From positions 49,223,863 to 49,287,862 of the forward strand of contig JALGPY010000010.1 of the NCBI GenBank assembly GCA_023055425.1: 64,000 bases of DNA. Reading direction: 5' to 3'. Under the pieces are notes generated by a model. That model was not told the DNA's origin. It ran no database searches and saw only the letters and a program-made list of their open reading frames with translations. Positions 19,729 to 61,849 of the stretch are shown piece by piece. Numbering within the stretch: the stretch's first letter is position 1; every line of letters begins with the position of its first letter. The DNA comes from Linanthus parryae (taxonomy: Eukaryota; Streptophyta; Magnoliopsida; Ericales; Polemoniaceae). A program made the position numbers and the translations under genes.

Positions 19729-20357
19729 TGTAGATAGTGCTTTCTGAGCAGACAAATCTTGGCCACATGGCGATCATCTAGCACACCATATTGTGCTCCA
19801 CACACACTGGATCACCAGCCGCGCTGATCCATGTGGGGGGCTGCGAGACAGGGCCCTCGCATACCACTGCACGGGACTTGTAGGGACTTAGTGGTTTGGA
19901 GGCTAGAGTAAGACCTGTCGCGTGGGAGCCAAGCCCGCGCGCGACCTTTAGTAACTGCTTTTGAGAGATTTATGGCACGAGCTCCATAAACCCGGTCAAC
20001 CCGGTCAAACCCGGTCAACCCCATAACGGTTCCGGTATTCGCGCATAACGTGCTGTAACGGTCCCTATATATGAGGACGAACGTGCCGTTGTGGTTAAGC
20101 TAATTAAGCCGCCATTGATGGGCGCATTAACCACACTACAACGGTCAAATTCTCCGTTATATATAGGACGTTAACCCTTCCATACGAGGGAGAACACACC
20201 AGACATACGCGGGAGCTCTGCCGAACCACTGTCTCTCTCTCAGACATTACTACTGCCTTACTCTCTCCCTACACAGGACCCAACACCTCCTGTGCTATTT
20301 CCAATCCTCTGCTCTTGGTGTACACGAAATCCTCTCTGCCGGATTCTCTTGTGCACA
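19729..20357 (+). repeat. 5' LTR of Tat-1
   Basis: 629 bp, TGTAGATAGTGC to CTTGTGCACA. It matches the LTRs of Tat-2 (27879-28506, 42662-43289) and the partial 3' LTR at 62602-62808. A TATA-like CCTATATATGAGG lies near 20063-20076. The GGTCAA motif repeats three times near 19994-20020. Confidence 0.93.
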
Positions 20358-22988: not shown

Positions 22989-25900
22989 AGGTGCGCGGGG
23001 GTGTCCTCACGCGGGCATGGGGATATCCCTGAGCAAATCAACCAAATTGAGCAGGTTTTGGAGACAGACAAACCGATGCCAAGCACTCTAGAAGAAAAAC
23101 TCAAAGAAGCACCCGAATGCATGGAAGACAAGCCCAGACCACAAAAGCAGGAGCTGAAGGAGGTATTCCTGAGCCCGAACGATGAAAAGAAGAGGCCAGT
23201 CTTTCTAAGTGCGGACCTCACAGCCGAAGAGGAGGAAAGATTGCTACAGCTCTTGACTGAGTACAAGGACGTATTCGCATGGGAATACGATGAAATGACT
23301 GGCCTGGACACGAGCATCACCATGCATCGGTTGGATGTAATCCCAGGATCCAAACCGGTGAAGCAGAGCACGAGAAGCTTTAGACCGGAGCTCAACGTGA
23401 AGATCAAGCAAGAAGTTGTCAAGCTTCTGAATGCCAAATTCATAGATCCAAATCACCATCCCACATGGTTAGCTAACATTGTGCCAGTGGTAAAGAAGAA
23501 TGGGCAGCTTCGCATTTGCGTGGATTTCCGGGATCTCAATCGTTTCTGCCCCAAGGATGATTTTCCACTTCCCAACATCGAATTACTTATCGATTTCACC
23601 GCGGGTCATCGCATGTTCAGCTTCATGGACGGCTTCAGTGGGTACAATCAGATCAAGATGAACCGCGGAGATGCACGGAAAACCGCATTCATCACCCCAG
23701 TGGGAGTATTCAACTATACGGTGATGCCTTTTGGTCTCAAAAATGCAGGTGCGACTTACCAGCGAGCCATGATGGCCCTGTTCCACGACATGATGCACAA
23801 GGAAGTGGAATTCTATGTGGATGACCTAGTTGTCAAATCCAAGGAGGAGGCAGACCATCTGGCGGATTTGCGAAAAGTGTTCAACAGATGTAGACGCTTT
23901 CAATTGAAGATGAACCCCATGAAGTGCGCATTCGGGGTAACATCAGGGAAGTTCTTGGGATGTGTGGTACATCGCCAAGGAATCGAGCATGACTCTGCGA
24001 AAGTATCAGCCATCACTGGTATGACTCCGCCGCATAACCAGAGTGCCTTGAAAACCTTATTGGGAAAGCTATCCTATCTGCGAAGATTCATCCCAGCGAT
24101 CGCCGAAATCACCTTCTGTTTCAGTGATCTTCTCAAGAAAGATGCCGTATACAACTGGACTGTGGAGCACGAAGCTGCGTTCGGGAAACTAAAGGAGCTG
24201 CTAACATCTTCAAAAGTAATGATCGCACCTCAGCTCGGATCACCACTCTTGTTGTATTTGACGTCAACAAGGAGGTCTATAGGAGCTCTCCTAGCTCAGG
24301 AGTATGAGGGTCAAGAAAGTCCCATCTACTACATCTCTCGCATCGTGCAGCCCGCGGAATCAAGGTACACGGACATCGAACGTCATTGTCTTGCTTTATT
24401 CTTCGTAATAGAGAAGTTGAGACACTATTTTGCTTCGCACAAAGTGGTGGTGGTCACAAGGAGCGATACCATACGATATCTCCTGACTCACACCACTCCT
24501 TGGGGAAGATTGGAAAAGTGGTATATGACCATCTCCCAATATGACATCACATGCGTTCAGCCGCGGGCGATCAAGTCGCAGGCGGTGGCGGATTTGCTGG
24601 CGCAGTTCGCCGATAATAGTCATGAGCCTGTGATTGAAGAAGAATTGGAGGGACCTGAGATCTACGCAGTTGAGTTGCCCTTTTGGACGCTCCATTTCGA
24701 CGGCTCGTCAACAAGGAAAGGTGGAGGCATCAGGATAGTCTTCACCAAACCAGATGGGGAAGTCATACAGATGTCCGCAAAGCTTGACTTCGCAGTCACC
24801 AACAACGAAGCAAAGTACGAAGCTCTCATCGCAGGACTCCGCGCGGCCAAGGCCTTGGAAGTAAGCAATTTGACGGTTATGGGGGATTCCAAGCTAATCG
24901 TCAAACAAGCCTCGGGCGAGTATGGTTTGAAGGAGATAAACTTATTGCCCTACCAGACCTTGGTACAGAAATTGGTGCAACAGTTCTGCGACGTTAGGTA
25001 CGAGCACAAACCTCGAACGGAAAATAGGCATGCTGACGCTTTAGCTACCTTGGGATCCAAGGTCAGTGCGGACAAATGTCCCGCGAGAATCTCGATTGAA
25101 GTGCGAACATCCTCGGCATTGACAGAAGACGCGTGCGACGATGAATGCATGGGCGATGCGGACTGGAGAAAGTCAATCTTACGGGCCATCGCAGAAGGCA
25201 CGAGCAGCGAGAACTGGGCATCTACAAAGGGGTATTGCATACATGACAACACCCTTTACTACAAGGGCCCTGGCGGAATACTTATGTGATGCGTCTCCGA
25301 GCAAGAGGGACAACTGTTGTTAGAAAAGATTCACCAACATGCTTGCGGGGAAAGCGAAGTGTCAATTTATCGAAAAGCCCAGAGATATGGCATTCATTGG
25401 CCGGACATGTCAACGGCCGCAGCATTGATTCAAGGAAAGTGCGAGAGTTGCGCACTGATCAAGGACTCTTTACTCATTGCTGTGACCGACGATGATGCGG
25501 ATTGGAGGAAACCACTCTTTGATTTTCTCACCCAGGGTATTGCACCCGAGTCGAGAAAAGAAGCCGAGAAACTAAAGAGAAAAGCAGCCCGATATGTGGT
25601 GCAAGAAAATCTGCTTTGGCGAAGGGGCCACGAAGGTAACTTGCTGCGATGTCTAGACAGCAGGGAAGCACAAGAAGTAATGGACCTTCTCATCAGGTGG
25701 AACATCAGGGAGGTGCGAAATTATGCAGGCAACTCCTCTCAATTGGATATTTCTGGCCCACTATGGAGGCTGATTGCCGCACCAAAGTAAGACGCTGCCA
25801 GGAGTGTCAATTAAAGGGTAATCTAGTGCACGCCCCTGCCGTAGATCTACATGCATTGGGAACACCATGGCCGTTTCACACGTGGGCTCTGGATTTCATA

Positions 25901-26723: not shown

Positions 26724-26935
26724 CTTCTCTCATTATATGCGTTATATTACAACGTTTGCTTCATGCTCTGTATTGCTATGATTCGCACATCTTCTCTCCC
26801 ATATGAGAGAATTGTAATCTCATCTCTCCCATACGAGAGTTTTATAATAAAAAGACTTCTCCCAAATGAGAAGAACTTTATGCTTTTAGCTGCCTTTATT
26901 GCTGTCTATTTCATTATTTCTGTTAGCGAAAGCCT
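26724..26935 (+). other. Spacer after Tat-1 pol
   Basis: Contains a short CTCCCATATGAGAG-type near-palindrome repeated several times (about 26795-26870); the same block follows pol in Tat-2 at 34968-35045. Confidence 0.6.
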
Positions 26936-27610
26936 ATCCGCCGTGATAGCAACCTGTGCGAATACGATCTTAAGTGATCTTCTAAAAACCTATCCGCCGC
27001 GATAGCAGCCTATGCAAATACGATCTTAAGTGATCCTCTAAATCCTATCCGCCGTGATAGCAGCCTATGCAAATACGATCTTAAGTGATCTTCTAAAGCC
27101 TATCTACCGTGATAGCAGCCTATGCAAAAACAATCTTAAGTGATCTTCTAAAGCCAATCTGCCATGATAGCAGCCTATGCGAATATGATCTTAAGCAATC
27201 TTTAAGACTATCTGCCATGATAGCAACCCATGTGAATGCGATCTTAAGTGATCTTTCAAGCCTATCTGCTACGATAGCAGCTCATGCGACTACGATCTTA
27301 AGTGATCTTTTAAAAGCCTATCTGCCACGATAGCAGCCTATGCGAATATGATCTTAAGTGATCTTTTCAAGCCTATCTGCCACGATAGCAGCACTATACA
27401 AATGCGATCTTAAAATGATTCTTAAGTCTATCTGCCATGATAGCAGCATTATGCAAAATGATCTTAAGTGATCTATAGAAGCCTATCCGCCGAGATAGCG
27501 CTCGTACTTGGGTTTAACCTTAAATAAATCTCAAGCCTATTCGCCAAGGTAGCAAAGCTACACAAGCACGATCTCGAACGATCTAAAAACATATCTGCGA
27601 ATTTATCCAG
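26936..27610 (+). repeat. Tandem repeat array of Tat-1 (about 54-56 bp unit), diverged
   Basis: About a dozen units built on GATCTTAAGTGATC, then CTATC(6 nt)GATAG, then GCAGCCTATGC. Units differ more than in Tat-2, but the inverted pair CTATC/GATAG is kept in most. The array decays towards 27600. It lies between pol and the extra antisense gene, as in Tat-2. Confidence 0.88.
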
Positions 27611-27878: not shown

Positions 27879-28506
27879 TGTAGATAGTGCTTTCTGAGCT
27901 GACAGATCTTGGCCACGTGGCAACCATCTAGCACACCATATTGTGCTCCACACACACTGGATCACCAGCCGAGCTGATCCATGTGGGGGCTGCGAGACAG
28001 AGCCCTCGCATACCACTGCACGGGACTTGTAGGGACTTAGTGGTCTGGAGGCTAGAGTAAGCCCTGTCGCGTGCGAGCCAAGCCCGCGCGCGACCTTTAG
28101 TAACTGTTTTAAGAGATCTATGGCACGAGCTCCCTAGACCCGGTCAATCCGGTCAAACCCGGTCAACCTCGTAACGGTTCCGATATTCGCGCACCACGTG
28201 CTATAACGGTTCCTATATACTCGGACGAACGTGCCGTTATGGTTAAGCTAATTAAGCCGCCATTAATGGGCGCATTAACCACACTACAACGGTCATGTTC
28301 TCCAGTATATATATATCGTTAACCTTTCCATACAGAGGAAGAACACACTTGCCATACGCGGAAGCTCTGCCAAACCTCTGTCTCTCTCTCAGACATTGCT
28401 ACTGACTTACTCTCTCCCTACACACACCCCTGCTCTTCCTGTGCGATCCTTGATCCACTACGTACGGTGTACACGGAGGTCTCCCCGCCGGAATCTCTTG
28501 TGCACA
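27879..28506 (+). repeat. 5' LTR of Tat-2
   Basis: 628 bp, TGTAGATAGTGC to CTTGTGCACA. It differs from the 3' copy at three positions (all A here, G there, or the reverse). A TATA-like CCTATATACTCGG lies near 28212-28224; downstream sequence is pyrimidine-rich (TCTCTCTCTCAGACA). Confidence 0.95.
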
Positions 28507-28509
28507 TTT

Positions 28510-28528
28510 TGGTGAACCCGACGTGAAT
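28510..28528 (+). other. Primer binding site of Tat-2
   Basis: The same TGGTGAACCCGACGTGAA core as in Tat-1, three bases after the LTR end. The tRNA was not identified. Confidence 0.6.
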
Positions 28529-28547
28529 CTTACCAGCAAAAGCAACC

Positions 28548-31159
28548 ATGTCTCAGGAGGATGATGTCAGCAACCGATCGCCTTCCACCGAAACTCCCTC
28601 GGGAGACGAGACCCGCCGTACTCCGACGACTCCCGGTGAAGCACCGACGTTAGAGTCTTTGGACGCCACTGTCCAAAGTCAGGCGAAAGCTCTCAAGTCT
28701 CAATCTGCGCAACTAGAACAAATCTTGGCTGTTCTGGGCACCCTTGCGCCAAATCCTCCGCCAGCCATCGCTATCCCTCAGGGAGGAGGAACCCCTACCG
28801 CTCCAGGATTGGGAGTGTCAGCCACACCTCCCAACCCTCATCTGCAGACTCCACCGTCGGCTGCGCAGTTGCCTTCGGTTCAAGGATCAACGGCACAGAT
28901 GCTGCCTCCTGCTGCTCACGCTCCTCAGCCCTCGGCTTTGGCGTCCAACCCAACTCTGCAGTACCCTTTGCCTCCCCCAACGATGATCTGGGGAAACGCA
29001 GGTACTCAGTATGCTCCCAATCCTCCGGCGGCATATGTGTCGCCACCGCCTACGGCAACCCCTCCGCAACTACCGAGGGGAGCATTCCAGAATGCATGAC
29101 GTCTTTGCAGAAGCGCGTGGACACCATCCTGGCTCATCGGTCATTCGCGGATACTATTATCCCGAAGTTAGACAACGATCCACCCATTCCACGAGAGATC
29201 TATCTAATGCCTAACCCGGCGGGGTACAAGGCTCCTAAATGGGATAAGTTCGAGGACGTCAATGGAAACGCTCATGAGCATGTCATGCGTTTCATTGATG
29301 TCATGGGTCCGTACGGAGCCGATCCCAAGCTGCTGATGCGAGAATTCCCAAAATCTCTTGGGAATGTAGCATACAAATGGTACCGAACATTGGAGGCCGG
29401 ATCCGTGAAGACTTGGGACGACATGGTCCAGAAGTTTTATACCAAGTTCTTCCAAATGGAAGAAAAGGTGACAATGATCCATCTCTCGCGGATGTACCAA
29501 AAGCGCTAGGAGGATGGGATCACCTTCATCAAGAAATTCCGGGCGAAATCCTTGGAGTGCAAAGATCCAATGCCCGAAAGCCGGCTCGTGGAGATATGCT
29601 TACAGTGCATGCGAGATGAATACAAAGGTATGCTCATCAATCTGCAAACACCTACGTTTTCAAAGCTAATCGAATGCACGAAGAACATCGAGCCCATAGT
29701 CGAGAGACAGAAAAAGAAGAGCGCTCCAGAGCGACCTGCGAGCGGCACCACTTACAAGATCGGGAGGTTTAGCTACAAGCGGGGACGCGAAGCTGAGGTC
29801 AATACAGTTTCGCCCCAGAAACAAGCGAGGGTTGCGAACTTCGATGTACCGCCTCTACCATGCTCGGTAGAGGAAGCAAGTGACCTCTGCAAACAGTGGC
29901 GCAAGGACGGCGTCCTGCCACCACTCGAGAAAACACCCTCCAAGGAGATGGTGAGGGACCCTAAGTGGTGTGAGTACCACGGCAAGATCATGCATCCCAC
30001 CGCCGAGTGTAAGAAACTCAGGTTCGCGTTCGATCAGAAGATGAAGAACGGCGAGCTAATCGTCAGCGACAACAGGAAGGACGTGCGCAACAACCCGCTT
30101 CCTGCCCATACAGAGTCAGGCTCGAAAGGCAAAGAGGTCTCCATGATCTCGATAGTAGACTTGGAGGAAGTCGCAGAGGATGGTCTACCCATCATTGCTG
30201 AGGTCCATGAAGACGAAGATTATAGCATGGACACGGAGGATGAACGTGCCGACCGCATGAAAGGGTCGCACGGCTTCAACAAATTCTTCGACGAGATGAA
30301 TTTCTCCGAGAAGTGCCGGACTGATATGACAAAAGCAATCTTAAGGATAGCGGAGGACTACGAGGAGGACCTCGTGGTCTCCAACGGGAAAGTCATCAGG
30401 GCGTCCCGTTCCACAGAAAAGATCATGACCTTTTCTGCCAGCGACAAGAAGACGGATGCGAGTCACCAGAGGCCTCTGTACGTGACCGCCATCATCAACG
30501 GCGTCGAATTCAAGCGAGCATTCGTCGATGGAGGAGCAGCGGTCAATGTTGTTCCACTCCACACACTGAAGCTAGCAGGGATCCCCGAGCACAAAGTGGT
30601 CAAGCGTCCATCTCCACTGGTGGGATTCGGATGCGACTCTAGAATGACGATCGGATGGATCCGCCTGGGCGTCCAGATTGGCAAGATCAAGTGCTCGGCG
30701 AAGTTCTATGTCATAGACGCGAACACCACATACCACATGATTATAGGTCGAGCCTGGATTCATCGCTTCGACGCAGTCCCTTCGACGGCTCACCAGGTTA
30801 TGAAAGCTATCTGGAACGACAGAATAGTCGAGATACCGGCTTCGACTAACCCGTTCAACTTGGACGAAGCACATCTCAGCGAGGCGGTGTGGTTCACTGA
30901 GATGGCGGACGAGCAAACACCCGGGCCATTCAACCCTACTCCTTTGCCTCTCTGGGAGGACATCAAGGACCAGTCACCTGCGGGCGTGATGGTGACAAGG
31001 GAAGATGCCAAGGAAAAGCCGCCTACACGCGAAGAGGCGCCACGTATCGCATATCATCGAAAGAATGTGTACACTTTGAAGAGGATCGCAAAGCATGACC
31101 CCGAGGGCAAGGAGATAGAGAGCTTCTACGCCAATGGGAAGAAATGCTATCGCATATGA
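28548..31159 (+). pseudogene. gag-protease of Tat-2, with one frameshift and one stop
   Basis: The ATG at 28548 (MSQEDDVSNRSPST) starts a proline-rich N-terminal part of about 170 codons. A one-base loss near 29065 shifts the frame relative to Tat-1, and the original frame resumes before the ATG at 29096. Gag domain: FPKSLGNVAYKWYRTLEAGS. A TAG at 29507-29509 replaces the GAG seen in Tat-1. From there the frame is open to 31159: zinc knuckle CX2HX4HX4C (CEYHGKIMHPTAEC, near 29970), protease with FVDGGAAVNVV (near 30520), and the same C-terminus as Tat-1. The frame ends at a TGA (31157-31159) that lies in frame with pol and is shared with Tat-1, so I take it as part of the normal design, unlike the first two breaks. 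Confidence 0.92.
31157..31159 (+). promoter_or_regulatory. In-frame TGA between gag-protease and pol (possible readthrough site)
   Basis: Context ATA-TGA-AGG-TGC is identical in Tat-1 (22986-22988). The pol frame continues in the same phase, with the next ATG five codons on in Tat-2 (31172). Suppression of a single stop would make a Gag-Pol fusion at low level. Alternatives are re-initiation or splicing. Confidence 0.55.
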
Positions 31160-31171
31160 AGGTGCGCGGGG

Positions 31172-34100
31172 ATGTCCTCACACGGGCATGGGGATGTCCC
31201 TGGGCAAATCAATCAAATCGAGCAAGTTGCGCTGACGGAAGAGCCAACACAAGGCACTCCAGACGAGAAACTCAAAGAAGCACCTGAATGCATGGAAGAC
31301 AGGCCAAGACCACAAAAGCAAGAACTAAAGGAAGTGTTCCTTAGCCCGAACGAGGAAAATAAAAGGCCAGTCTTCCTGAGTGCGGACCTCACAAGCGAAG
31401 AGGAACAAGGACTGCTACAGCTCCTAACTGAATACAAGGACGTGTTCGCATGGGAGTACGATGAGATGCCGGGTCTGGATACAAGCATCACCATGCACCG
31501 TTTGGACATCATCCCAGGGTCTAAACCGGTCAAGCAAAGCACCAGAAGCTTTAGGCCAGAGCTTAACGTGAAGATCAAGCAGGAGATAGTCAAACTCCTA
31601 GATGCCAAGTTCATAGAGCCAAATCATCATCCCACATGGCTGGCCAACATCGTGCCGGTGGTGAAGAAGAACGGACAGCTCCGCATCTGCGTGGACTTCC
31701 GAGATCTCAATCGCTTCTGCCCTAAGGACGATTTCCCACTGCCCAACATCGATTTGCTTATCGATTCAACAGCAGGCCATCGCATGTTCAGTTTCATGGA
31801 CGGTTTCAGCGGGTACAATCAAATCAAGATGGATCCCGAAGATGCGCGGAAAACTGCATTCATCACTCCTGTGGGGGTATTCAACTACACGGTGATGCCG
31901 TTCGGTCTTAAGAACGCGGGCGCGACCTATCAGCGAGCCATGATGGCTCTATTCCACGACATGATGCACAAAGAGGTGGAATTCTACGTGGATGACCTGG
32001 TGGTTAAATCCAAGCACGAAGCGGATCACCTTGCAGACCTGCGAAAGGTGTTCAACAGATGCAGGAGCTTTCAACTGAAGATGAACCCCATGAAATGCGC
32101 GTTCGGCGTGACCTCGGGGAAGTTCTTGGGATGTGTAGTCCATCGCCAAGGGATCGAGCCTGACCCCGCGAAAGTGTCAGCCATCACCAGCATGACGCCA
32201 CCCCATAACCAAAGTACCTTGAAGACATTCTTGGGAAAACTGTCATATCTGCGGAGATTCATCCCAGCAATTGCAGAAATCACATGCTGCTTCAGCACTC
32301 TTCTCAAGAAGGACGCCGCGTACAACTGGGCTCCGGACCACGAAGCCGCATTCGAAAAGCTGAAAGAGCTACTCACGTCCTCAAAAATAATGATCGCGCC
32401 TCAACTGGGATCACCGCTTCTGCTATATCTTACATCAACAAGGAGATCTATAGGAGCACTCTTGGCTCAGGAGTATGAAGGCCAAGAGAGGCCCATCTAC
32501 TATATCTCTCGCATTGTGCAGCCTGCTGAATCAAGGTACACAGACATCGAACGTCATTGCCTTACGTTATTCTTTGTGATAGAGAAGTTGAGAAACTATT
32601 TTGCATCACACAAAGTAGTGGTGGTCACCAAAAGCGACCCCATAAGATACCTGCTAACTCACACTACTCCGGGCGGGAGATTGGCGAAATGGTACATGAC
32701 CATCTCTCAATACGATATCACATGCGTGAAACCAAGGGCGATCAAGTCGCAGGCGGTAGCGGATCTGTTGGCACAGTTTCCCGACAACAGCCACGAACCC
32801 GTGATCGAAGAAGAGCTCGAAGGCCCTGAAATCTACGCAATAGACGTGCCCTATTGGACCCTCCACTTCGACGGTTCGTCAACCAGGAAAGGCGGAGGCA
32901 TTGGGATAGTCTTGACAAAGCCAGACGGGGAAGTCATACAGATGTCTGCAAAGCTCAACTTCGCAGTCACGAACAACGAGGCGGAATACGAGGCTCTCAT
33001 CGCGGGGCTCCGTGCGGCGAAAGCTTTGGAAGTGAGCAACTTAACGGTCATGGGAGATTCCAAACTGATCGTTAAGCAAGCCTCGGGCGAATATGCTTTA
33101 AAGGAGATCAACCTCCTGTCTTACCGCACCCTAGTACAAAAACTGATGCAGCAATTCTGCGATGTGAAATACGAGCACAAGCCCCGAGCGGACAATAGGC
33201 ACGCAGACGCCTTAGCAACCTTGGGATCTAAGGTCAGTATAGACAAGTGCCCCGCAAGGATTTCCATCAAAGTGCGAACATCGTCGGCATTAACAGAAAA
33301 TGCGTGCGACGGCGAACACATAGATGACGCAGATTGGCGGAAAGCAATCCTGCAAGCTATTGCGAAAGGCACCAGCAGCGAAAGCTGGGCACTCACAAAA
33401 GGATACTGCATCCACGACAACACCCTTTACTACAAGGGTCCTGGAGGAATACTCATGCGATGTGTCTCCGAGCAAGAGGGACAACAGCTGTTAGAAAAGA
33501 TTCACCAGCACGCTTGCGGAGAAAGCGAGGTGTCAATCTACAGAAAGGCTCAGAGATATGGCATTCATTGGCCAGGCATGTCAACAGCTGCAGCCCTGAT
33601 ACAAGGGAAGTGCGAAAGTTGCGCACTAATCAAAGATTCTCTACTCGTCGCCCTAACCGATGACGACACGGACTGGAGGAAGCCACTGTTTGATTTTCTC
33701 ACCCAGGGCACCGTCCCCGAATCGAGAAAAGAAGCCGAAAAATTGAAAAGGAAAGCATCTCGATATGTGGTACAGGAAAACCTGCTTTGGCGAAGAGGTC
33801 ACGAGGGCAACTTGCTGCGTTGTCTAGACGGCAGAGAAGCACAAGAAGTCATGGACCTTTCTCATCAGGTAGAACACCAAGGAGGTGCGAAATTATGCAG
33901 ACAGCTCCTCTCAATCGGATACTTCTGGCCCACGATGGAAGTCGATTGCCGCACCAAAGTGCGACGCTGCCAAGAATGCCAATTCAAAGGGAACCTAGTG
34001 CACGCTCCCGCCGTGGATCTACATGCATTAGGGACGCCATGGCCATTTCACACATGGGCTCTGGACTTCATCGGTCCCATCCGACCCACGTCGCATGGGA

Positions 34101-34897
34101 ACCATTTCATTCTCACCGCAACCGAGCTGTTCACCAAATGGGTGGAAGCAATACCACTGAAGACGGCAAACGCGCTGGCTGTGGTCAACTTCATCCAGGA
34201 AAGCATCGTATGCAGGTTCGGAATCCCAAATACCATTCTTTCAGATAACGGTACTCCTTTTGTTAATCGCCAGGTAGCTGCAAAACTAGCGGAGTACAAT
34301 ATCAGGCAGATATGCTCTACCCCTTATTACCCAAAGGGAAACGGACAAGCCGAAGCGACTAACAAAACGCTGTTGAGAGTTCTGAGCAAGATGGTCGCAG
34401 ATGACCACAAGAAGTGGGCCGACTCCATAAGCATAGCTCTATGGGCCTACAGAACTTCTCCAAGGACACCCACAGGGGCCTCGCCATTTCTATTATGCTA
34501 TGGGGCCGAAGCTGTAGTACCTGCGGAGGTCAGGGTCAATTCGGCAAGGCTGGCCTTCCACGCACTCTATGAAAATCAACGCGATCATGACTTAGTCTTG
34601 CTGGAAGAAAAGCGAGAACAAGCCAAAAGGACCAACAAGCGGTACCAGGAAAGAATCGCTCGCGCCTACAATAAGACAGTCCAGCGAAGAGATTTCGCAG
34701 TTGGAGACCTGGTCTTGCGCGCATCTGACCATTGTATGCGGGAAGCAACTCACCCAAAGTTCGCAGCTAATTGGGAAGGACCCTTCGAAGTCACAGAAGT
34801 CTTCGATAGTGGCTACTGCAGCATACGAAGGTTGCACGGCACAACCTCAACTCCGAGTTCAGTCAACATGCGCTGGATTAAGAAGTACTATCCCTGA
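31172..34897 (+). CDS. pol of Tat-2: RT, two RNase H domains, integrase (intact)
   Basis: 1241 codons with no internal stop, in frame with gag-protease across one TGA. Reverse transcriptase at about residues 165-330, with YVDD at 272-275. The first RNase H (about 400-520) lacks the usual first Asp: LYLTSTRRSIGALL stands where an Asp is expected. A second, archaeal-like RNase H (about 560-690) has all its acids (HFDGSS, NNEAEYEAL, GDSKLIV, HADALA); this double arrangement marks the Tat lineage. Integrase has an H-H-C-C zinc site (HQVEHQGG, CQECQ, about 898-935) and a D-D-35-E core at D965, D1025, E1061. Translation could start at 31172 or by readthrough of the TGA. It would supply replication functions for this element if Gag came from another copy. 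Confidence 0.95.
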   Translation: MSSHGHGDVPGQINQIEQVALTEEPTQGTPDEKLKEAPECMEDRPRPQKQELKEVFLSPNEENKRPVFLSADLTSEEEQGLLQLLTEYKDVFAWEYDEMPGLDTSITMHRLDIIPGSKPVKQSTRSFRPELNVKIKQEIVKLLDAKFIEPNHHPTWLANIVPVVKKNGQLRICVDFRDLNRFCPKDDFPLPNIDLLIDSTAGHRMFSFMDGFSGYNQIKMDPEDARKTAFITPVGVFNYTVMPFGLKNAGATYQRAMMALFHDMMHKEVEFYVDDLVVKSKHEADHLADLRKVFNRCRSFQLKMNPMKCAFGVTSGKFLGCVVHRQGIEPDPAKVSAITSMTPPHNQSTLKTFLGKLSYLRRFIPAIAEITCCFSTLLKKDAAYNWAPDHEAAFEKLKELLTSSKIMIAPQLGSPLLLYLTSTRRSIGALLAQEYEGQERPIYYISRIVQPAESRYTDIERHCLTLFFVIEKLRNYFASHKVVVVTKSDPIRYLLTHTTPGGRLAKWYMTISQYDITCVKPRAIKSQAVADLLAQFPDNSHEPVIEEELEGPEIYAIDVPYWTLHFDGSSTRKGGGIGIVLTKPDGEVIQMSAKLNFAVTNNEAEYEALIAGLRAAKALEVSNLTVMGDSKLIVKQASGEYALKEINLLSYRTLVQKLMQQFCDVKYEHKPRADNRHADALATLGSKVSIDKCPARISIKVRTSSALTENACDGEHIDDADWRKAILQAIAKGTSSESWALTKGYCIHDNTLYYKGPGGILMRCVSEQEGQQLLEKIHQHACGESEVSIYRKAQRYGIHWPGMSTAAALIQGKCESCALIKDSLLVALTDDDTDWRKPLFDFLTQGTVPESRKEAEKLKRKASRYVVQENLLWRRGHEGNLLRCLDGREAQEVMDLSHQVEHQGGAKLCRQLLSIGYFWPTMEVDCRTKVRRCQECQFKGNLVHAPAVDLHALGTPWPFHTWALDFIGPIRPTSHGNHFILTATELFTKWVEAIPLKTANALAVVNFIQESIVCRFGIPNTILSDNGTPFVNRQVAAKLAEYNIRQICSTPYYPKGNGQAEATNKTLLRVLSKMVADDHKKWADSISIALWAYRTSPRTPTGASPFLLCYGAEAVVPAEVRVNSARLAFHALYENQRDHDLVLLEEKREQAKRTNKRYQERIARAYNKTVQRRDFAVGDLVLRASDHCMREATHPKFAANWEGPFEVTEVFDSGYCSIRRLHGTTSTPSSVNMRWIKKYYP

Positions 34898-35105
34898 CTT
34901 CTCTCATTTCATACGTTTTATGATAACGTGCTTAATGTCTCATGTGGCTATGATTAACGCAATCTCCTCTCCCATATGAGAGGATTGTAATCCCATCTCT
35001 CCCATATGAGAGCGTTATAATAAAAGAATTCTCCCAAATAAGAAGTTCATATTTCTAGCTGTTTATGTTGCTCTATTTAATTTGTTATTACTGTTAACAA
35101 TGGTT
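34898..35105 (+). other. Spacer after Tat-2 pol
   Basis: Non-coding; contains CTCCCATATGAGAG near-palindromes (34968-35011), as in Tat-1. Confidence 0.6.
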
Positions 35106-36340
35106 TATTCGCTGCAATAGCAATACATACAACTGCGATCTTAAGTGATCATCTAAGCATATCTCTCACGATAGCAGCCAATGCAAATGCGATCTTAAGT
35201 GATCATCTAAGCCTATCTCTCACGATAGCAGCTAATGCAAATGCGATCTTAAGTGATCATCTAAGCCTATCTCTCACGATAGCAACCAATGCAAATGCGA
35301 TCTTAAGTGATCATCTAAGCCTATCTCTCACGATAGCAGCCAATGCAAATACGATCTTAAGTGATCATCTAAGCCTATCTCTCACGATAGCAGCCAATGC
35401 AAATGCGATCTTAAGTGATCATCTAAGCCTATCTCTCACGAGAGCAGCCAATGCAAATGCGATCTTAAGTGATCATCTAAGCCTATCTCTCACGATAGCA
35501 TCCAATGCAAATGCGATCTTAAGTGATCATCTAAGCCTATCTCTCACGATAGCAGCCAATGCAAATGCGATCTTAAGTGATCATCTAAGACTATCTCTCA
35601 CGATAGCAGCCAATGCAAATGCGATCTTAAGTGATCGTCTAAGCCTATCTATCAAGATAGCAGCCAATGCAAATGCGATCTTAAGTGATCATCTAAGCCT
35701 ATCTCTCACGATAGCAGCCAACGCAAATGCGATCTTAATTGATCATCTAAAGCCTATCTCTTACGATAGCAGCCAAACGCGAATGCGATCTCAATTGATC
35801 ATAAAAGCCTATCTGTTACGATAGCAGCCTATACAAATACGATCTCGATCGATCATCTAAGCCTATCTCTCACGATAGCGGTCTGTACAAGTGCGATCTT
35901 AATTGATCACCTAAGCCTATCTGTTACGATAGCAACTCATACGCAAAACGATCTTACCAGATCTTCTCAAGCCTATCTGTTACGATAGCAACTTATATGC
36001 AAAGTGATTTTAGTTGATCACCCAAGCCTCTGTTACGATGGAAACGCATGCGCAAAATGATCTTATTGGATCTTCTAAAAAGTCTATCTGTTGCGATAGC
36101 AGTTTATGCGAGAAACGATCTCAAACAATTCTCTAATAAAGCCTATCTGTTGTGATAGCAATCCGCACCACTTAACAATCTTAATTGATCTGCTAAGGAC
36201 TATCTGCTACGATAGCAATGTTGTGAAAATGATCTCAAATGATCCACAACGGCCAACCACAAGCCCATCCGCCGAGATGGCACATCTGCGAAAATATGAT
36301 CTCGAACGATCTAACGAAACATCCGCGAAATCGATATCGT
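35106..36340 (+). repeat. 54-bp tandem repeat array of Tat-2
   Basis: About 22 units. The period is exactly 54 bp in the left half (for example 35137, 35191, 35245). Each unit has GATCTTAAGTGATC followed by CTATC(6 nt)GATAG and GCAGCCAATGCAAATGC. The first dozen units are nearly identical; those after about 35700 diverge, yet the CTATC/GATAG pair stays while the loop between changes. There are no spacers and no coding frame. Confidence 0.95.
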
Positions 36341-37679
36341 AGATGCGAAACCATTACATAGCATTATGCAAAGCGAAATAAGCCAAAATGCATGCGAATT
36401 TGTATTTTGTTGCAAAGAGACAGCAGATAATACAAAAGCTATGTATCATTATGAGTCAAATGACTTACAATTTATCTGTCTAGATAGCAGCTTACAAGCG
36501 AAAAGCTCGAATCTAACTACGCAGCCAACATGGCTTACAATACATTCGAAAAGTGGCTGGTAAGCCAGCAGAGACACAGTACGGAAACCCGGACTGCAAA
36601 GGATGAGCTCACCGGTTCCAACACCGGCTATACAATACGTTCCCAAATCTGCGGGTGAACATCTGTCGCAGCTAGGATCTTGCTCCAGAGAGCCACATGA
36701 AGCCATACGTTCAAGATCCCAGCATTTGACAAGACCCTTGTCAGATCTGCTCCCCATAACATTTGCCCAAGGAACCACCGGTTCCAGCGATCAACATGCA
36801 AGCAGAAGCTCCAAAGGGCAAGGGCTCCTTGTAGACGGGGATGAACGCAGCGGTTCGCAACCCTGAGTTCAAGAACAAAGAGGCAAGAAATCCTCCTCCA
36901 GGGATGCTGGAGGAGAATTCCGCCGTTCATTACGAGACGGTAGCACGGTCACTTCGGCGCTGCACCTCTCCACGAGGCGGCCGGAAACATGACCTGCACA
37001 CATAATACACGAAGAAATTTCTTCGAACACACATGAGATGTTATCTCCATCTTCTTTATGATGGTTATAAAGAGCAATTTTCCTCATAAAGTGGATCTTG
37101 GAAACTATTTCTATAGCACAAAGCGCAAACTCAGGATTCAAAACTTGAAGTTGCCATGAATCAACGAAAAATAAGCGTTGAAGCCAGCAGTCGTAAGGAC
37201 TCACGGCAAAGCACATCATTGGGATGAAGAACCCAAATAGCAAAGACGGGGTTTATATAGACCCTGTGGAGACTCTTCAGTTACCAAGGATGAGTCAGCA
37301 GAATTCAAAAAGAGGGTAAGTTCAATCACTTACGCCTTGAAAAGCGGTAACAATCAATTACCCTACTAAAGGCTACGACGATTCAGTTGCGTATCCTAAT
37401 AAATGACGGATGGTCATGATTCGGATGGACTTCCCAACAAAAGCGTGTTTATCTGCCGAGATATTAGCGCGAAAATCAAGCAAAGTATCAATTGCTGACG
37501 TCATGATCGGGTATGCACAAAGATATCCTGTCAAATCCCAAAAACGGCAAAACGGGCAGAATTCATTGTTCGTTGTAAAAAAAAAAGGGGGGAGAAACCC
37601 TAGCAACATTACATTAATGTTTCAAGACATTACATTAATGTTTCAGTTATTTCCTTGCTATTTTTGCCGACTCGAAAAG
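36341..37679 (+). other. Spacer between tandem array and antisense gene in Tat-2
   Basis: About 1.3 kb without a credible gene; short frames occur on both strands but are not kept in the matching part of Tat-1 (56288-57528). It would contain the 3' untranslated region of the antisense gene. Purine- and pyrimidine-rich patches occur near 36880-36920 and an A run near 37578. Confidence 0.6.
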
Positions 37680-40600
37680 TCAAAGCAAATTCTTGATCAA
37701 GGAGTCTTGGGGCTCGAACTGCTCGCTCAGCTTCTCTACCTGTTCCACTTCTTGCTTCAGTAACTCGCACCTAGCATTCATCTCATGATACAGCTTCAGA
37801 GCTTCATCAACCTTTTGCTTCTGCTGCTCCACCTTCTGCTTCTCAGCTGCGAGATTCTGGTTGCCGAGTTTCAAAGTTACGGCTGCGCGAATCAGCGTGA
37901 CTCTGTCCTTAAGGAATTTGAAACCAAGTCTGCCCTGGACTTTGGCAACAAGATTTTGGCACATGCCACATAGCAGTTCAGCACTTTGGACAGAAATGGT
38001 CGCTGGCGTAGCCGCAGATAGCTGCTCCAGAATCCAAATGGCTTCAGTAAGGAACAGCCTCCTGTCAAAAGGCCCGATCTCCAGAGATCTCACAAACGAT
38101 CGGGGGTAGGTGAGACGCATTCGAACCACCCAGTCTACATCGGTTTGCTTCAAACCTAAAGTGATCTCAAAATAAGTTACGATGTCAAAACTCGCAAGTG
38201 AATAATGCGATGTGCGAACAGTAAATCTTTACTTACCAGTCCTTCCAGAATCTCATGAAGGGAAGGAATGCGAGCTGTCGGGGTGTTCAAAGATCGCCCT
38301 CGCTCCATGGCTCTCCTATCAGCTGCGAGCTCCAATCTCTCGTAGTCAGGAGGAAGAGTGTAGGCCGCACCAGCTGCGACTGCATTCCCAACCTGCGAGC
38401 CCCAAATGCTCCACGCAGGAATAGGTGCCTCTGGCTCAGTCATCGCCGGAGGCGAAGGAACAGCTGGAGTCGCCTGCTGAAGGACGCTCTCGGATGCGAA
38501 AGCATTAGCAGCACTTGTCCTTATCTCTTCAGCACCAGCACGGACACCTTCATCCATTGGCATAGCATCAGCTTCGGCATCATCGGAAAGTTCGATGACG
38601 TTCTCGAGAGGCTCACTTGCGTGTCCAGTAGCTGCGGCGGGTTTCCTGGTATGGGAGCTCGGAATCGGAACATAGGACGCAGAAGGCTGACTTCTCTGTT
38701 CCAGCGCAGGTTCCTCAGCATGACCTGCGGCATTAAATGCGATGATATGAGGTAACTTGTGTTATAAGTTATTTTCGCTATCTTTACTAAAGCTAAGAGT
38801 AAGCACCTCCACGCGAAGGTGGGATTGAGGTATCCTCATCATACACTAGGGACGTGGAACCGTGCCCTATCAGTGTGTCCTCACTAAGCAAGTCTTTAAG
38901 AGAAGCGTGACCTGGGATGCGAGTAAACCAGTCATGATTCTGCCTCAAGTGGCTAAAGCCTAGTACGTGCATATCACTCAAATAATTACCTGAGGGTTCT
39001 CCGCAATTGCCTACTAACCAACGGCGAATGTCAGCCTTTGACACACCGTGCTTTAACGCACCCACGATAACATCTCTATAAGTTACTGCGAGATTGAAGA
39101 TCTCACCTTTATCGCCGCCTGCGATCTCTTCGAAATCCGCCTGGACTTGCTCCAAGGCCGCTGCATCCTATCCGGGAACCTCATCTTCCTCCTCCACATG
39201 AGGAGCCACTTCTTCGGGAAGCTCGTCTTCCTCGCCAACTGGGCGCGCTAAGTCGTCAACATGCTGCTCTTCGAGGCTCCGCTGTTTCACACGCTCGAGC
39301 TCCTCTTCCTCTCGCTGCCTTCTTCTTTCAGCAGCCTCCGCGGCTGTCTTTCGGGACTCAGCAAGAACGTCCTCGCTTATGGGATCATCTGAAATGCCAG
39401 AATGGGCATCTCTCTTTTGTCTCTTGGCCACAAGGCCACCAACGGTTTCATCATCATCATCTGCGAATACACAATTGGTTCAAAGAAAAGAATTGCAAAG
39501 AAGTTATGATAACGGGAGAAGAAATGCGACGGAAGTACCTCCTGATTCTTCCTCGTGCATCACAACTGTTACTTCTTCTTCTTCATCACTTGTTTGGGGC
39601 TCCTGCCTCTCTTCCTCTTCCTCTTGGTTGAATGGAACGAAAGTCTCAACTGCGAGATCTTTTCGCACTTTGCTGGGCATGCGACCTTTGCCTTTGTCCT
39701 TGATAGAAAGAGACCTCACTGGGGGATAAGCTGGAGCACTTCTAGGGGAAGAAATCGTAATTCCCTTTTGCCTAGGTCTCTTCACTCTCGGCGCCGCAGT
39801 CGCTGGAGGGGACGGGTCATCTCTAGGAGGAGACGGAGCCGGAGGATTGTCTATCAACGAGTCGGCAAAAGTTTTCATGACTGCGCGAACCTTTGTTTCG
39901 ACCTCGGCGTCCATCCTCCATGCTAGCCGGAACGACTCCCCTTGCCTTCTGGTGGCAACAATGGTGTTAACCAGCGATTTGGAGCGATCACCAGCTGCAA
40001 ACCTCCGCACATGACACTAAAGCAGTACAAAATGAAAATATCAGCGTAAGGAAATCAAGAAGCTTGACGCAGGCGAAGAAATTGCTTACCTCAGCAAACG
40101 CCTTGCTATATCTGACGACGTGCGTGTCGCCCTTCTTGATTGCGGCGACTTGCTCCTTCAGAATGAAATCAGAGCACAAATGGTTCTCACGGTCCCACAG
40201 TGAGTAGCAACCATACTCAGACTCGCTCAGGCTGCAAGTGGGGCGAAACGGAAAAGAGTTTCTTTTGATCAAGGGAGCTCTACCTGGCTGCGCCGCCGCC
40301 TCCGTCTCAATCCTCGTTTGCTGGGCAACCCAGTATGCGAGCCAACTCTGGGAACAACCACCCTCGCGGGTTCCCGCAGGCTGCTCAAAGGGAAGATTGT
40401 TCATGAAGACCGTCTTGCACTCCTTTGTCAGCAAGCGCTTGTAGCATCCTCTGATAATAGACTGGGGCCAGATTGATGGGGCCACTGCATCAAAACCAAA
40501 CTGAGGAGAAACCCGAGTGGGGTCAACATCCACTGTAAGCTTTTCATACCTTGGCGCGAGCTCACGAATATGCTCTGCAAGGGCAGGAAGGGAACCTCGC

Positions 40601-41970
40601 AGACACCAGCAAAAGAACTCGCGATAGCGCTCGTGGAAATGCGGTCCCTTTTCAAAGAGAAGTTCTTCTGAGAAGACCATACCTTTGGAGGGGTATAGCT
40701 TTGGAAACCATCGCACATTCTCGATACGCGTGGCATAGGGCCTGGCAGTAAACTCCTTCCGTTTGTCGCATATCAAACTCCAAGCGCACTTGGTGTTGCT
40801 TGCTCCAAACCATCTCGCAGCTCTTCCGCTGTTGCGCGCTTCTGTCTCGCCTGGGGGACACCACTTATCAAGCTTAAGAGCAGTCGGAGCATAAGACGGC
40901 CATCGCTCGAAAACCCACATTGTCAAAAAGGAAATATTGACAAAGGTCAGAACATCGAGGCGACCACGCGACTCCCTCATAGCCAGAACCAGCTGATCGA
41001 GCCTATTATACAGTGTGCCCAAGACCAAGGGTCCGAGTGCGACTCTCTGGCCAAGAGCAAGCCTCACAGCAAGTGGCAGCACATGGTAGAAGACTCCGTC
41101 ATGGGGGTGACCATCAATCAAGTACCTTGACAGCCAGGCACAGAGAAAGGCACAAAGGGTCAAATGATAACCCTTGCCCTCTACGTAATTCTCGGCCTCC
41201 GGGTCCTCACTCAGAAGTTTCTTGGTAATGCTGCTGTTCGCATAGTCTCGGAAGAAGTACTGCAACAATTTGTTCCAGGTATTTTTCGCAGACGTATCAA
41301 CCAGCTGCCAGTTCGGAAGAGGCTTTGTAGTGGTCCACCGAGTGGAGATTTTCTTTACCTCTGCTAGGCACTCCTCCATCTGCGTGTACAAGGCAATTTC
41401 CGCAGATGTCCTCAAGGGACTCAGAGGGTCCACCTCGCCCATGGGGGAAAGCTCGTACAGCATTTGAACGTCCACGAGTGTCGGGGCAGCCTCGAACTCA
41501 GCAAAATGGAACGTATGAGTCGCAGGCGAGTAACGAGACAGAAGGTCTAGAAGCATGGATTGATCCAACTTCACGGCACCACCCTTCATAGCATGGATAG
41601 CAAAGTATACGCCGGCTTCGTTAAGAGTCACGGCGTGATGATCCAACACGTGGTCAATCCACTCATCCATATAGTCCAATTTCTGGACGAACGCCTGAGT
41701 AGAAATCGCAGTATATGGGAAGTGCCCGTTCTCGATCCCCAATCGAACTACATCCTCGGAACCAACCAACTCGAGCAAGGCTGAGTTAACTGGGCGAGTC
41801 AGCGTCAGCAATCGCTCAACTGGAACAGGATCAGGCATCCTCTTCGCCTTTACCCTCGCATGGTAGAAATCTTTGCCGCCTAAAAAGGGGGCTTTTCGCC
41901 ACAAGGCCTGCGGAAGCTCGGGTATCTCTTCATCTTCCTTGACGGGTCTGGTTACTCTTGTCTTGGCCAT
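37680..41970 (-). pseudogene. Large spliced antisense gene of Tat-2 (plant-mobile-domain-like N-terminus, coiled-coil tail)
   Basis: Coding exons on the minus strand as I read them: 41970-40090, 40016-39539, 39460-38990, 38911-38807, 38724-38237, 38155-37680. Introns are 73-82 bp, each GT...AG (GTAAGC, GTACTT, GTAATT, GTGCTT, GTAAGT; acceptors CTTTAG, TCGCAG, CCCAG, CCGCAG, TTTAG). The ATG sits 2 nt after an acceptor-like CCGCAG, which suggests a 5'UTR intron. Exon 1 encodes 627 residues with a block like the plant mobile domain (YSPATHTFHFAEFEAAPTL, then LALGPLVLGTLYNRL, then FERWPSYAP). Exons 2-5 are charged and acidic (KRPRQKG, NQEEEEERQE, EEQHVDDLARP, EPLENVIELSDDAEAD). The last exon ends in a coiled coil (LAAEKQKVEQQKQKVDEALK). 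The product would have about 1300 residues. Breaks: TAG at 39166-39168, and a one-base loss near the end of the fifth exon compared with Tat-1. The protein function is unknown. Confidence 0.8.
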
Positions 41971-41972
41971 TC

Positions 41973-42402
41973 CTGCGGAAGAGCAAGAAAAAGGGGGGAG
42001 AAATACCACACTTCAGTTTGAATTTTGGAATTCGAGATCTATGCAAAGGAAAACGAACAGTTTCTGGTATCGATTTCAGAAATCGGGAAGTTGCAAGATC
42101 CAATATTGTTGAAGGATTAAAAAGCAAAAGAGGGTTCAAAGATCAAAGCCTCTTCACAAATTTCATGGGTTTACAGATTCAACGCAGTTCAAGGCAAACA
42201 CTGGTATCTTAAATCAAAAGTAAACGAGGCCAACCTTGTTTTCTTGAAGCCTGCTTGGATATGCACAATTGAAGAATACGATCTGCAGTTCTGAACTGGT
42301 GATTGATTATCTGGATCTGCTCTCGAAGATCTCCGGGTACCATTCACTTTAAGAGAAAGAAGTGATGCCTTGCAATAATGGGGGATACAAGGTATTTATC
42401 CA
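41973..42402 (-). promoter_or_regulatory. Likely promoter, leader and 5'UTR intron of the Tat-2 antisense gene
   Basis: On the minus strand GGATAAATACC (42392-42402) looks like a TATA box. It is kept in Tat-1 at 62332-62342. A pyrimidine-rich 3' splice site (CCCCCCTTTTTTCTTGCTCTTCCGCAG pattern, 41973-41998) lies just before the ATG, and a possible donor, AACAAG-GTTGGCC, lies near 42229-42240; both are kept in Tat-1. The 260 bp between the TATA and the 3' LTR contain no other gene, so the antisense gene appears to have its own promoter. This is inference from sequence only. Confidence 0.5.
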
Positions 42403-42648
42403 AAACAATGAAGGGTTGCGTCCTTTCGATAGTCGAATCGCAACCGTCACCGTCGTATCGCGCAATCACAGGACAAGCTGACGTCACGCCTAAAACCCTA
42501 AAGGCCAGACGGCACGACTCTAGGGGTTTTAGGTCATAATGACACGCACGGGGGCTGAATCTACCCGTATTTGAATTGGTGCGTGGCGGCGACGCGCATG
42601 TTGGTTTCCGCGCATGGAAGTCTATACGGCTATGAGTCTTCACGCGCA

Positions 42649-42661
42649 GAAAGGGGGCTAA
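42649..42661 (+). other. Polypurine tract of Tat-2
   Basis: GAAAGGGGGCTAA directly precedes the 3' LTR; identical in Tat-1 (62589-62601). Confidence 0.85.
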
Positions 42662-43289
42662 TGTAGATAGTGCTTTCTGAGCTGACAGATCTTGGCCACG
42701 TGGCAACCATCTAGCACACCATATTGTGCTCCACACACACTGGATCACCAGCCGAGCTGATCCATGTGGGGGCTGCGAGACAGAGCCCTCGCATACCACT
42801 GCACGGGACTTGTAGGGACTTAGTGGTCTGGAGGCTAGAGTAAGCCCTGTCGCGTGCGAGCCAAGCCCGCGCGCGACCTTTAGTAACTGTTTTGAGAGAT
42901 CTATGGCACGAGCTCCCTAGACCCGGTCAATCCGGTCAAACCCGGTCAACCTCGTAACGGTTCCGGTATTCGCGCACCACGTGCTATAACGGTTCCTATA
43001 TACTCGGACGAACGTGCCGTTATGGTTAAGCTAATTAAGCCGCCATTAATGGGCGCATTAACCACACTACAACGGTCATGTTCTCCAGTATATATATATC
43101 GTTAACCTTTCCATACAGAGGAAGAACACACTTGCCATACGCGGAAGCTCTGCCAAACCTCTGTCTCTCTCTCAGACATTGCTACTGACTTACTCTCTCC
43201 CTACACACACCCCTGCTCTTCCTGTGCGATCCTTGATCCACTACGTACGGTGTACACGGAGGTCTCCCCGCCAGAATCTCTTGTGCACA
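42662..43289 (+). repeat. 3' LTR of Tat-2
   Basis: 628 bp, same length as the 5' LTR, three differences (TTTTGAGAG versus TTTTAAGAG; CCGGTATT versus CCGATATT; CCAGAATC versus CCGGAATC). It ends GTGCACA, then Athila LTR sequence resumes. Confidence 0.95.
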
Positions 43290-46171: not shown

Positions 46172-47857
46172 CTACTGATCTGGCCTGTAACTAGAATATG
46201 TGTTCTCCGGAGTAGACTGGTCAGTCGGCTCTGGAGATGGTGAAGGGGTTCGCCCTCTGGGGCGTTTCCTCGCAGCATGGCATGCTGCGGCAGCGGTACC
46301 AGCGTGGCTGGCACCGGGATGGGCACTACTGGCCCCTGGGTCTACATGCTGCCTAGGTGGGTACTGGGTACCGGGTCTGCCGGGGTCACCAACACTGTCT
46401 GCGTGTTCCGGACTCTGTGTGGGGTCATGGCCAGAGAAGCTGTCATATGGCCGACTATCCTCCATTTTCCAACTGGGACAATTATCACTCGAATAGCGGT
46501 CCGGGAAGTTAAATCTCTTACCACGCATGTTGCTCTGAATTTCAGCGAGTGCCGCCTCATGAGTTCTCAATGCGGCTGTGTTAGCGTGGTAAATATGCTT
46601 CTGGGTCTTGAACAACTTTCCAAGACTCCTGGCCATTTTCTTGACCGTCCTTACCAGGTAGTTTTGCACTTTTTCTTGGGCCTTAATTTTCTTTCTGACC
46701 CATTCCTCATGTTCAGTCCTCTCCAGGCGCCCAAAAGAACTGCGCCTGGCCCCTCTACTGGACTGCCCTAGGTCGGGCTCGGTCTGCCTGTGTTCACTGG
46801 AACTGGCAGATCGTGGCAGTCGAAGGGGACCTGGTAAGGCTGGAACACCCCCATCACCGGGAGGAGGTGGCGGTGGCATACCAACACCCCCACCCTGAGG
46901 CGGAGCATCATCATCATCATCGTCCACTTGGACAAATTCTGGAGGCCCGTGCAGAGCCTCGTGCAAAGCACATCTCATGTTTCGGTACTTGCGTACCTGC
47001 ACTGGTCGAATATCTCTCAGCTCGCCAGGAATGACAACCCGATAATCCTACGCCATTTTGGTTAACATCCCCAGGATACCTAAACCCTTCTTGCTGTGGG
47101 ACTCTCTCCGTTCCCGAAAAAACTCACAAATAATCTCCGGGAGGCTCACAGGCTCTCTGGCCATCAGACAGTATACCGAAAGGGCAATATTATAATCTAT
47201 GCGGGTAAAGTGTTTAATACCCACAATCCTGTTGTTTACCCACTCAGTCCACCATCTCGCCTCTCGAATCAGATAGGTCGCAGGGAGTTTCCGGTAGGAA
47301 GGACTCCGTTCAGGATAGTACCAAGCAGCGCCTGGTACACCCGCACACAAGGTGGTTAGGATCTTTTCGCTAAGCTGTTCAGAGGGATGACGCCTCAGTT
47401 CCTGAAACTGACAGTCATCCAACACTAATTCCAGACCCAGACTCTCTCGAATACTCTCTGGGGTGATCCTAATCCATCTCTTTCTGCAGTAAATCCAGTC
47501 AATTGACTGGGCTTCACTGTTCATGCACTGCTGGAGATTACTGAAAATCTCCTTAGCCAGCACAGAACTGACTTGCAGATTTGTAAAACCAGTAAACAAA
47601 TCCCCAAAATGATCCTGCCCAGTATAGTTGAACAGTTCATCCCCCATCGCCACTCTATCACGGGGAAAAGTTCTCTCAGCAGGTATGTAATACCGAATCT
47701 TTTTGTCTTGCAGAAAGAAACGGTGAGCCTCCATATTAACAAACCTATGGTCGCAGAAATGGTCAACCCTAAGCAATCTGAAATCTATGATGTTCAAGGG
47801 TGCAATCACCCTATCAGGCCTCATATACGGGCTATCCTCATCCATTTCAAGATTCAA
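46172..47857 (-). pseudogene. Env-like ORF of the Athila element, one in-frame stop
   Basis: An extra ORF after pol, starting MNLEMDEDSPYMRPD. The first 269 codons end at TAG 47048-47050; the same frame continues to 46172, about 562 codons in total. The N-terminal half has the block IRITPESIRESLGLELVLDD, reminiscent of the extra ORF in the SIRE-like element and of domains described as putative plant transposon protein. The second half has poly-Asp, poly-Pro (GMPPPPPPGDGG), a basic helical segment (WVRKKIKAQEKVQNYLVRTV) and a low-complexity basic tail (RKRPRGRTPSPSPEP). I see no signal peptide and no clear membrane segment, so an envelope role is not supported by the sequence; the name follows the position. 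Apart from the stop the frame is open. Confidence 0.72.
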
Positions 47858-56282: not shown

Positions 56283-56287
56283 ATCAT
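56283..56287. other. Target site duplication of the Athila element, right copy (ATCAT)
   Basis: An exact repeat of 27718-27722; Tat-1 sequence resumes right after it. Confidence 0.9.
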
Positions 56288-61847: not shown

Positions 61848-61849
61848 CT

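Follow-up and report, generated by a model that had tools for sequence, protein, structure and literature searches.

Our comparison of two related retrotransposons in a 64,000-nucleotide stretch of Linanthus parryae DNA (contig JALGPY010000010.1; hereafter the window) leaves us, on the evidence of codon patterns, all but certain that the younger of them, the Tat-clade Ty3/gypsy element Tat-2, carries a real antisense gene that requires the introns proposed for it and was selected as a protein. The gene has six exons and about 1,300 codons, and lies at 37680-41970 on the strand opposite to gag-pol, between pol and the 3' long terminal repeat (LTR). A sequence-only reading had proposed such a six-exon antisense gene in a young Tat element, and it is confirmed by selection on the exons in comparison with a second copy; the five GT-AG introns of 73-82 bp that it listed are all present (Table 1). 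On balance we somewhat favour the whole explanation, in which a spliced antisense gene of host-like build belongs to the element and its plant mobile domain (PMD) protein would be a nuclear trans factor acting on silencing.

Codon-level evidence for exons and introns

The second copy is a decayed counterpart in the older element Tat-1, which aligns with the Tat-2 gene along its whole length. Between the two, the ratio of nonsynonymous to synonymous divergence (dN/dS) over the exons is 0.121 (1,289 codons; bootstrap 0.099-0.145) at a dS of about 1.0, counted with 3 stop-containing codon pairs set aside and gapped codons skipped; a ratio near 1 had been named beforehand as telling against the gene. 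The wrong frames of the same exons gave 12 values from 0.72 to 2.03, and neutral simulations fell as low as the observed ratio in 0/300 cases for five exons and in 5/300 for exon 4. In fact substitutions in the exons are spread over codon positions 1/2/3 as 193/136/499, a bias with P < 2e-5 in 5/6 exons (exon 4, with 18 changes, has P = 0.22), and none of the five introns shows any such bias (P > 0.13 in 5/5). Moreover, a six-frame sliding scan found that the selected frame changes from one part of the gene to the next in the way that the introns demand. Identity between the copies is 75-83% in exons and 60-76% in introns, ranges which overlap (introns 2 and 4 resemble exons 2 and 5), so that identity alone does not separate the two classes and the codon analysis does. 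Although the exons are in total ten times longer than the introns they hold fewer insertions or deletions (indels), with 4 events (1 nt in exon 1, 22 nt in exon 2, 3 and 1 nt in exon 5; exons 3, 4 and 6 are free of them) against 6 in the introns (3 and 5 nt in intron 1, 3 nt in intron 2, 2 nt in intron 3, 1 and 1 nt in intron 4, none in intron 5). The A+T content is 56-65% in introns and 47% in exons.

When every phase-compatible GT-AG pair 55-160 nt apart was scored with a splice weight table, the proposed intron was the top-scoring pair at 4/5 junctions (junctions 1-4, with 11, 14, 37 and 11 candidates, respectively), and both intron ends are kept in Tat-1 for 4/5 introns. The donors of introns 1-5 rank 3, 13, 2, 33 and 1 among 338 scored GT sites of the minus strand, and the acceptors, which stand out less, 108, 3, 24, 4 and 73 among 451 scored sites. 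Codon phase is kept at junctions 1-4 and lost at junction 5 with the proposed pair, but an acceptor at 38148 that the sequence-only reading had missed, in phase and 8 nt beyond the proposed one, would keep the frame open, and a frame break in Tat-2 at this junction need not be assumed. The Tat-2 sequence of intron 3 is free of in-frame stops, and we rejected it as coding, considering that its changes are even over codon positions (7/9/7) and that it differs from Tat-1 by a 2-nt indel. Directly ahead of the ATG, an acceptor at 41973 scores 8.7, the second best of the 451, which suggests an intron in the 5' untranslated region (UTR); a candidate donor at 42234 scores 5.7, with its GT kept in Tat-1.

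The rest of the element gives a measure of how old the gene is. Between the same copies the protease region has a dS of 1.09 and a dN/dS of 0.051, pol 1.25 and 0.035, and the gag N-terminus 0.74 and 0.203, and identity at four-fold sites reaches 61-64% for the antisense gene, against 54-55% for gag-pol. The divergence of the gene resembles that of gag-pol, so it is an old part of the element, inherited together with the rest and not captured recently, and it is less constrained than pol.

Upstream of the gene, the block at 42360-42600 is 90-91% identical between the copies (core 95%) and holds the ATAAATA and TGACGTCA motifs in both, which makes it a good candidate for the gene's own promoter; gene23 of maize Grande is likewise reported to have one (as cited in PMC7264820). 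Downstream, the block at 36900-37450 is 87-90% identical (core 94%) without codon bias and has the TATA-like TATATAAA in both copies, and 36427-36540 is 88-93% identical; the Tat-1 counterparts of both lie within 56283-57350, and they may represent another promoter, or else a signal at the RNA level. As yardsticks, the gene's four-fold sites are 61-64% identical, intron interiors 55% at C/G and 75% at A/T, and the compared part of the LTR 93-96%. A small open reading frame (ORF) on the minus strand in the downstream block (36869-37243) was rejected as coding, the block being without codon bias, with a proportion of nonsynonymous differences (pN) of 0.13 against 0.09 for synonymous ones (pS) in its own frame.

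Table 1. Features of the antisense gene, its counterpart and the elements around it, in positions of the window
Feature	Position	Strand	Remarks
Exon 1	40090-41970	-	627 codons, starts with ATG; dN/dS 0.102
Plant mobile domain PF10536	40471-41595	-	residues 126-500 of exon 1; E 5.2e-26
Intron 1	40017-40089	-	73 bp; GT-AG kept in Tat-1; 60.3% identity; 3- and 5-nt indels
Exon 2	39539-40016	-	KRPRQKG basic cluster; dN/dS 0.113
Intron 2	39461-39538	-	78 bp; GT-AG kept in Tat-1; 3-nt indel
Exon 3	38990-39460	-	acidic, pI 4.4; in-frame TAG in Tat-2; dN/dS 0.095
Intron 3	38912-38989	-	78 bp; GT-AG kept in Tat-1; 2-nt indel; no codon bias
Exon 4	38807-38911	-	105 bp; dN/dS 0.196; neutral simulations as low 5/300
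Intron 4	38725-38806	-	82 bp; GT-AG in Tat-2; acceptor AG lost in Tat-1
Exon 5	38237-38724	-	dN/dS 0.238
Intron 5	38156-38236	-	81 bp (89 bp with in-phase acceptor 38148); GT and AG kept in Tat-1
Exon 6	37680-38155	-	stop codon (TGA, also in Tat-1) and helical tail; dN/dS 0.115
Candidate 5' UTR intron	41973-42234	-	candidate donor 42234; acceptor 41973 directly ahead of ATG
Promoter-like block upstream of gene	42360-42600	-	ATAAATA at 42399; TGACGTCA at 42486
Second conserved non-coding block, downstream of gene	36900-37450	-	TATATAAA at 37259-37252
Counterpart gene in Tat-1, decayed	57529-61845	-	aligns along whole length with Tat-2 gene
Tat-2, young Ty3/gypsy LTR retrotransposon (Tat clade)	27879-43289	+	LTRs 27879-28506 and 42662-43289
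Tat-2 pol ORF (reverse transcriptase, RNase H, second RNase H, integrase)	31172-34897	+	Pfam order; dN/dS 0.035 against Tat-1
Tandem array between pol and antisense gene, Tat-2	35130-36101	+	54-bp unit
Tat-1, older element	5' LTR 19729-20357; right part 56283-62808		split by Athila

The encoded protein and its relatives

A profile search, in which a missing PF10536 match had also been named beforehand as telling against the gene, upheld the plant-mobile-domain-like N-terminus of the sequence-only reading, with PF10536 scoring 92.1 bits against a cut-off of 34.9 over profile positions 4-294 of 347. The Tat-1 piece matches as well (E 3.3e-22, 79.6 bits), and 317/374 aligned residues of the domain are identical between Tat-1 and Tat-2. 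Both copies have a basic cluster resembling a nuclear localization signal (NLS), KRPRQ(K/R)G, in exon 2. The acidic middle and the coiled-coil-like tail were also found as described: exons 3-5 have isoelectric points (pI) of 4.4-4.6, and the model of exon 6, mostly a single long helix with a predicted local distance difference test score (pLDDT) of 74, contains a predicted 66-residue helix at 79-144 with block pLDDT of 80-93 across residues 81-140. The PMD region also matches DUF7745 weakly and below the cut-off in both copies (E 6e-4 in Tat-1, 60508-61866; E 0.061 in Tat-2, 40090-41970), hinting that this family and PF10536 are akin. Homologues of exon 1 were absent among 7,994 scored candidates, among PDB sequences and in viral contigs (335 stretches fit the pattern, 0 confirmed), and homologues of pol were absent from the viral contigs; as plant sequence appears scarce in these collections, the missing homologues say nothing about plants.

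PMD proteins in Gypsy elements are known, as are antisense ORFs in Tat elements. The former make up clades PMD-A1/A2 (Ikeda et al. 2017, PMC5418596), and like the Tat-2 product they are PF10536 proteins borne by Ty3/gypsy elements, a likeness at the level of the domain; neither antisense nor intron appears as a word in its text. These clades stand apart from the PMD-C proteins MAIN and MAIL1 of Arabidopsis, which are products of host genes that act in silencing of transposable elements (TEs) and interact with PP7L (PMC5418596, PMC7156037). Kinship of the Tat-2 protein with MAIN/MAIL1 is thus seen in the domain only, and a silencing function is not thereby implied. PMD was the commonest extra domain in one survey (PMC9289625), and extra ORFs with pfam10536 occur in 57% of Ogre elements, in a survey that scored ORFs one at a time, from 250 codons upwards (Neumann et al. 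2019, PMC6317226). Tat-2 is similar, as a Tat-clade element with the domain outside gag-pol in additional coding sequence; however, unlike Ogre its PMD gene is 3' and antisense, its LTRs are short and no long spacer parts gag from pol. The Ogre spacer between the gag-pro and pol ORFs averages 274 bp (PMC6317226); in both Tat-1 and Tat-2 an in-frame TGA and 12 nt take its place.

The Retand elements also resemble it in layout. Those active recently generally carry antisense ORFs, with TRP28 in 97% of clusters, and these ORFs are tallied one by one (Vicient 2025, PMC11963269). Tat-2 shares with them a long stretch between pol and the 3' LTR that has antisense coding, as well as tandem repeats and an LTR whose 628 bp fall inside 315-1,194, but unlike them its gene has a PMD and introns, and PF04195 (TRP28) matched none of the 7 Tat-2 antisense pieces scanned (E up to 1) and none of 3 Tat-1 pieces and 3 small antisense ORFs (E up to 0.1). 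Its size is also outside theirs, at 14,155 bp internally against 7,380-12,869 and 7,764 bp between pol and the 3' LTR, where theirs measures up to about 6.6 kb. Introns, PMD and mobile domain go unmentioned in PMC11963269, where splicing appears only in a reference. Grande, compared here by description, likewise has an antisense gene in the 3' internal region, gene23, with its own promoter and a nuclear protein (as cited in PMC7264820); that paper, which urges attention to antisense and spliced transcripts, mentions no PMD and no intron. An antisense homing endonuclease gene in a mobile group I intron is also cut by a spliceosomal intron (PMC9548176), although that case involves an unrelated element and protein and one intron. 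Among the matches listed in our literature search, no title or abstract opening told of a retrotransposon whose antisense PMD gene has introns; the 2011 extra-ORF survey and the 2013 gene23 paper lay outside this scope, and either could mention them. The 2011 survey is said to be the first report of a PMD in Tat ORFs.

What the protein might do for the element

As we picture it, the gene would have its own promoter beside the 3' LTR, perhaps a 5' UTR intron, and six coding exons parted by five short introns, and its product, about 1,300 residues long, would combine a PMD with an NLS-like cluster, an acidic central part and a tail resembling a coiled coil. The survival of introns in antisense orientation follows from established retrotransposition logic, as they stay in the genomic RNA and a five-intron gene can therefore persist through the RNA stage. 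A sense-strand intron is removed by splicing and does not survive reverse transcription, the principle behind intron-marked reporters (PMC12786077). Pairing between sense and antisense transcripts can attract silencing, a cost that the protein should repay, and the likeliest benefit would be relief from silencing by way of the host PMD/PP7L module. We put forward only tentatively that it is a nuclear trans factor for the chromatin or transcription of the element, one which engages or blocks this module and so allows the family to be expressed and to spread. An anti-silencing role is plausible, and Ikeda et al. speculate that PMDs captured by Mutator-like elements (MULEs) serve anti-silencing (PMC5418596). 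In tea, 175 phased small interfering RNA (siRNA) loci lie at PMD genes (PMC10673657, in passages that state no Tat origin), a finding compatible with a host response to genes of this kind.

The chief alternatives to silencing relief are autorepression and a part in replication through DNA binding; both, which we consider rather unlikely, keep the same spliced PMD gene. In the first the protein restrains the element, either as a negative autoregulator or by controlling copy number, whether by itself or together with antisense RNA; antisense RNAs can indeed lower retrotransposition, as in Ty1 (PMC12786077, PMC7264820), and the PMD relatives MAIN/MAIL1 silence TEs (PMC5418596), yet a trans repressor profits the encoding copy little and dN/dS is 0.12 across a deep divergence. 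In the second the protein is a cofactor for replication, nuclear import or integration that binds element DNA at the conserved blocks or the 54-bp array. The basic cluster, conserved non-coding blocks and tandem arrays in both copies would suit such a cofactor, and the anti-silencing VANC proteins bind motifs in the tandem repeats of their own elements (PMC5735166); however, none of the 40 listed array 9-mers recurs in the LTR, the promoter block or the second block, and no DNA-binding family rose above the cut-off in the antisense pieces scanned by profile search. Several separate short unspliced antisense ORFs, as an ORF finder would list and the Retand survey counts singly (PMC11963269), are very improbable, considering that the selected frames meet at GT-AG sites with both ends kept in 4/5 introns and that codon bias vanishes between them. 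That the region yields only a regulatory non-coding antisense RNA with the ORFs as relics is hardly credible, since conserved blocks with TATA-like motifs on the minus strand fit it but the neutral simulations contradict it in 5/6 exons (0/300 as low; exon 4, 5/300).

Several points weigh against the spliced gene with a silencing-related protein that we prefer. The gene model and its splicing are predictions from the sequence, and the selection analysis compares two copies only. An in-frame TAG in exon 3 of Tat-2 (39170-39168) had been overlooked in the sequence-only reading; in the Tat-1 gene the start codon is altered, the frame is broken in exons 1 and 2, there are two stops, and intron 4 is without the acceptor AG. 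With these defects a full protein is established for neither copy, and the observed selection acted on the ancestors of the two genes; the copies seen today may have died recently or be supplied in trans. Moreover, introns 1 and 5 have acceptors of middling score, a structure prediction for exon 1 from two sequences reached a pLDDT of 31 and was discarded, and antisense mRNA pairing with element RNA could itself trigger silencing.

More doubtful is a broader proposal, that the antisense orientation is a device for carrying a host-style multi-intron gene with its promoter, that the PMD protein interferes with MAIN/MAIL1-PP7L, and that many Tat antisense 'extra ORFs' are exons of such genes. If the last were true, single-ORF surveys have fragmented these genes, whose complete proteins can now be delimited and tested. 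With a selected, TE-encoded relative of a host silencing protein, a PMD-based arms race can be put to a direct test, and the architecture illustrates a general route by which retroelements retain introns.

The host element and its surroundings

The window holds three nested elements (19729-62808), with Tat-1 split by a minus-strand Athila and one Athila LTR split in turn by Tat-2, and this three-deep nesting gives a clear order of relative ages. The 628-bp LTRs of Tat-2 have 3 differences (99.52% identity), which at an assumed rate of 1.3e-8 per site per year places its insertion about 0.18 million years ago; the Athila LTRs are 97.9% identical across 1,601 aligned columns. The primer-binding site of Tat-2 is TGGTGAACCCGACGTGAA, which appears to correspond to tRNA-Trp; the criterion for the Ogre lineage is a site complementary to tRNA-Arg. 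Pfam matches in pol run RVT_1, RT_RNaseH (residues 414-514), RVT_3/RNase_H (RVT_3 at 566-683), Integrase_H2C2 and rve (958-1054), with the second RNase H (aRH) between RNase H and integrase that marks the Tat clade and is described for Ogre and Retand (PMC6317226). The gag-protease and pol ORFs share a frame and are parted by the TGA plus 12 nt in both copies (31157-31171 in Tat-2; 22986-23000 in Tat-1), a conserved stop that suggests read-through or re-initiation; gag of Tat-2 is split over two frames. Beyond the end of pol (34897), 4.3 kb of the region up to the 3' LTR is the antisense gene. An Rfam search of the Tat-2 element gave 0 matches. Tat-1 too has a tandem array after pol, with a 55-bp unit (26929-27499), and an Athila ORF on the minus strand (47048-47857) matches Transposase_32 (PF20167, E 5.6e-14).

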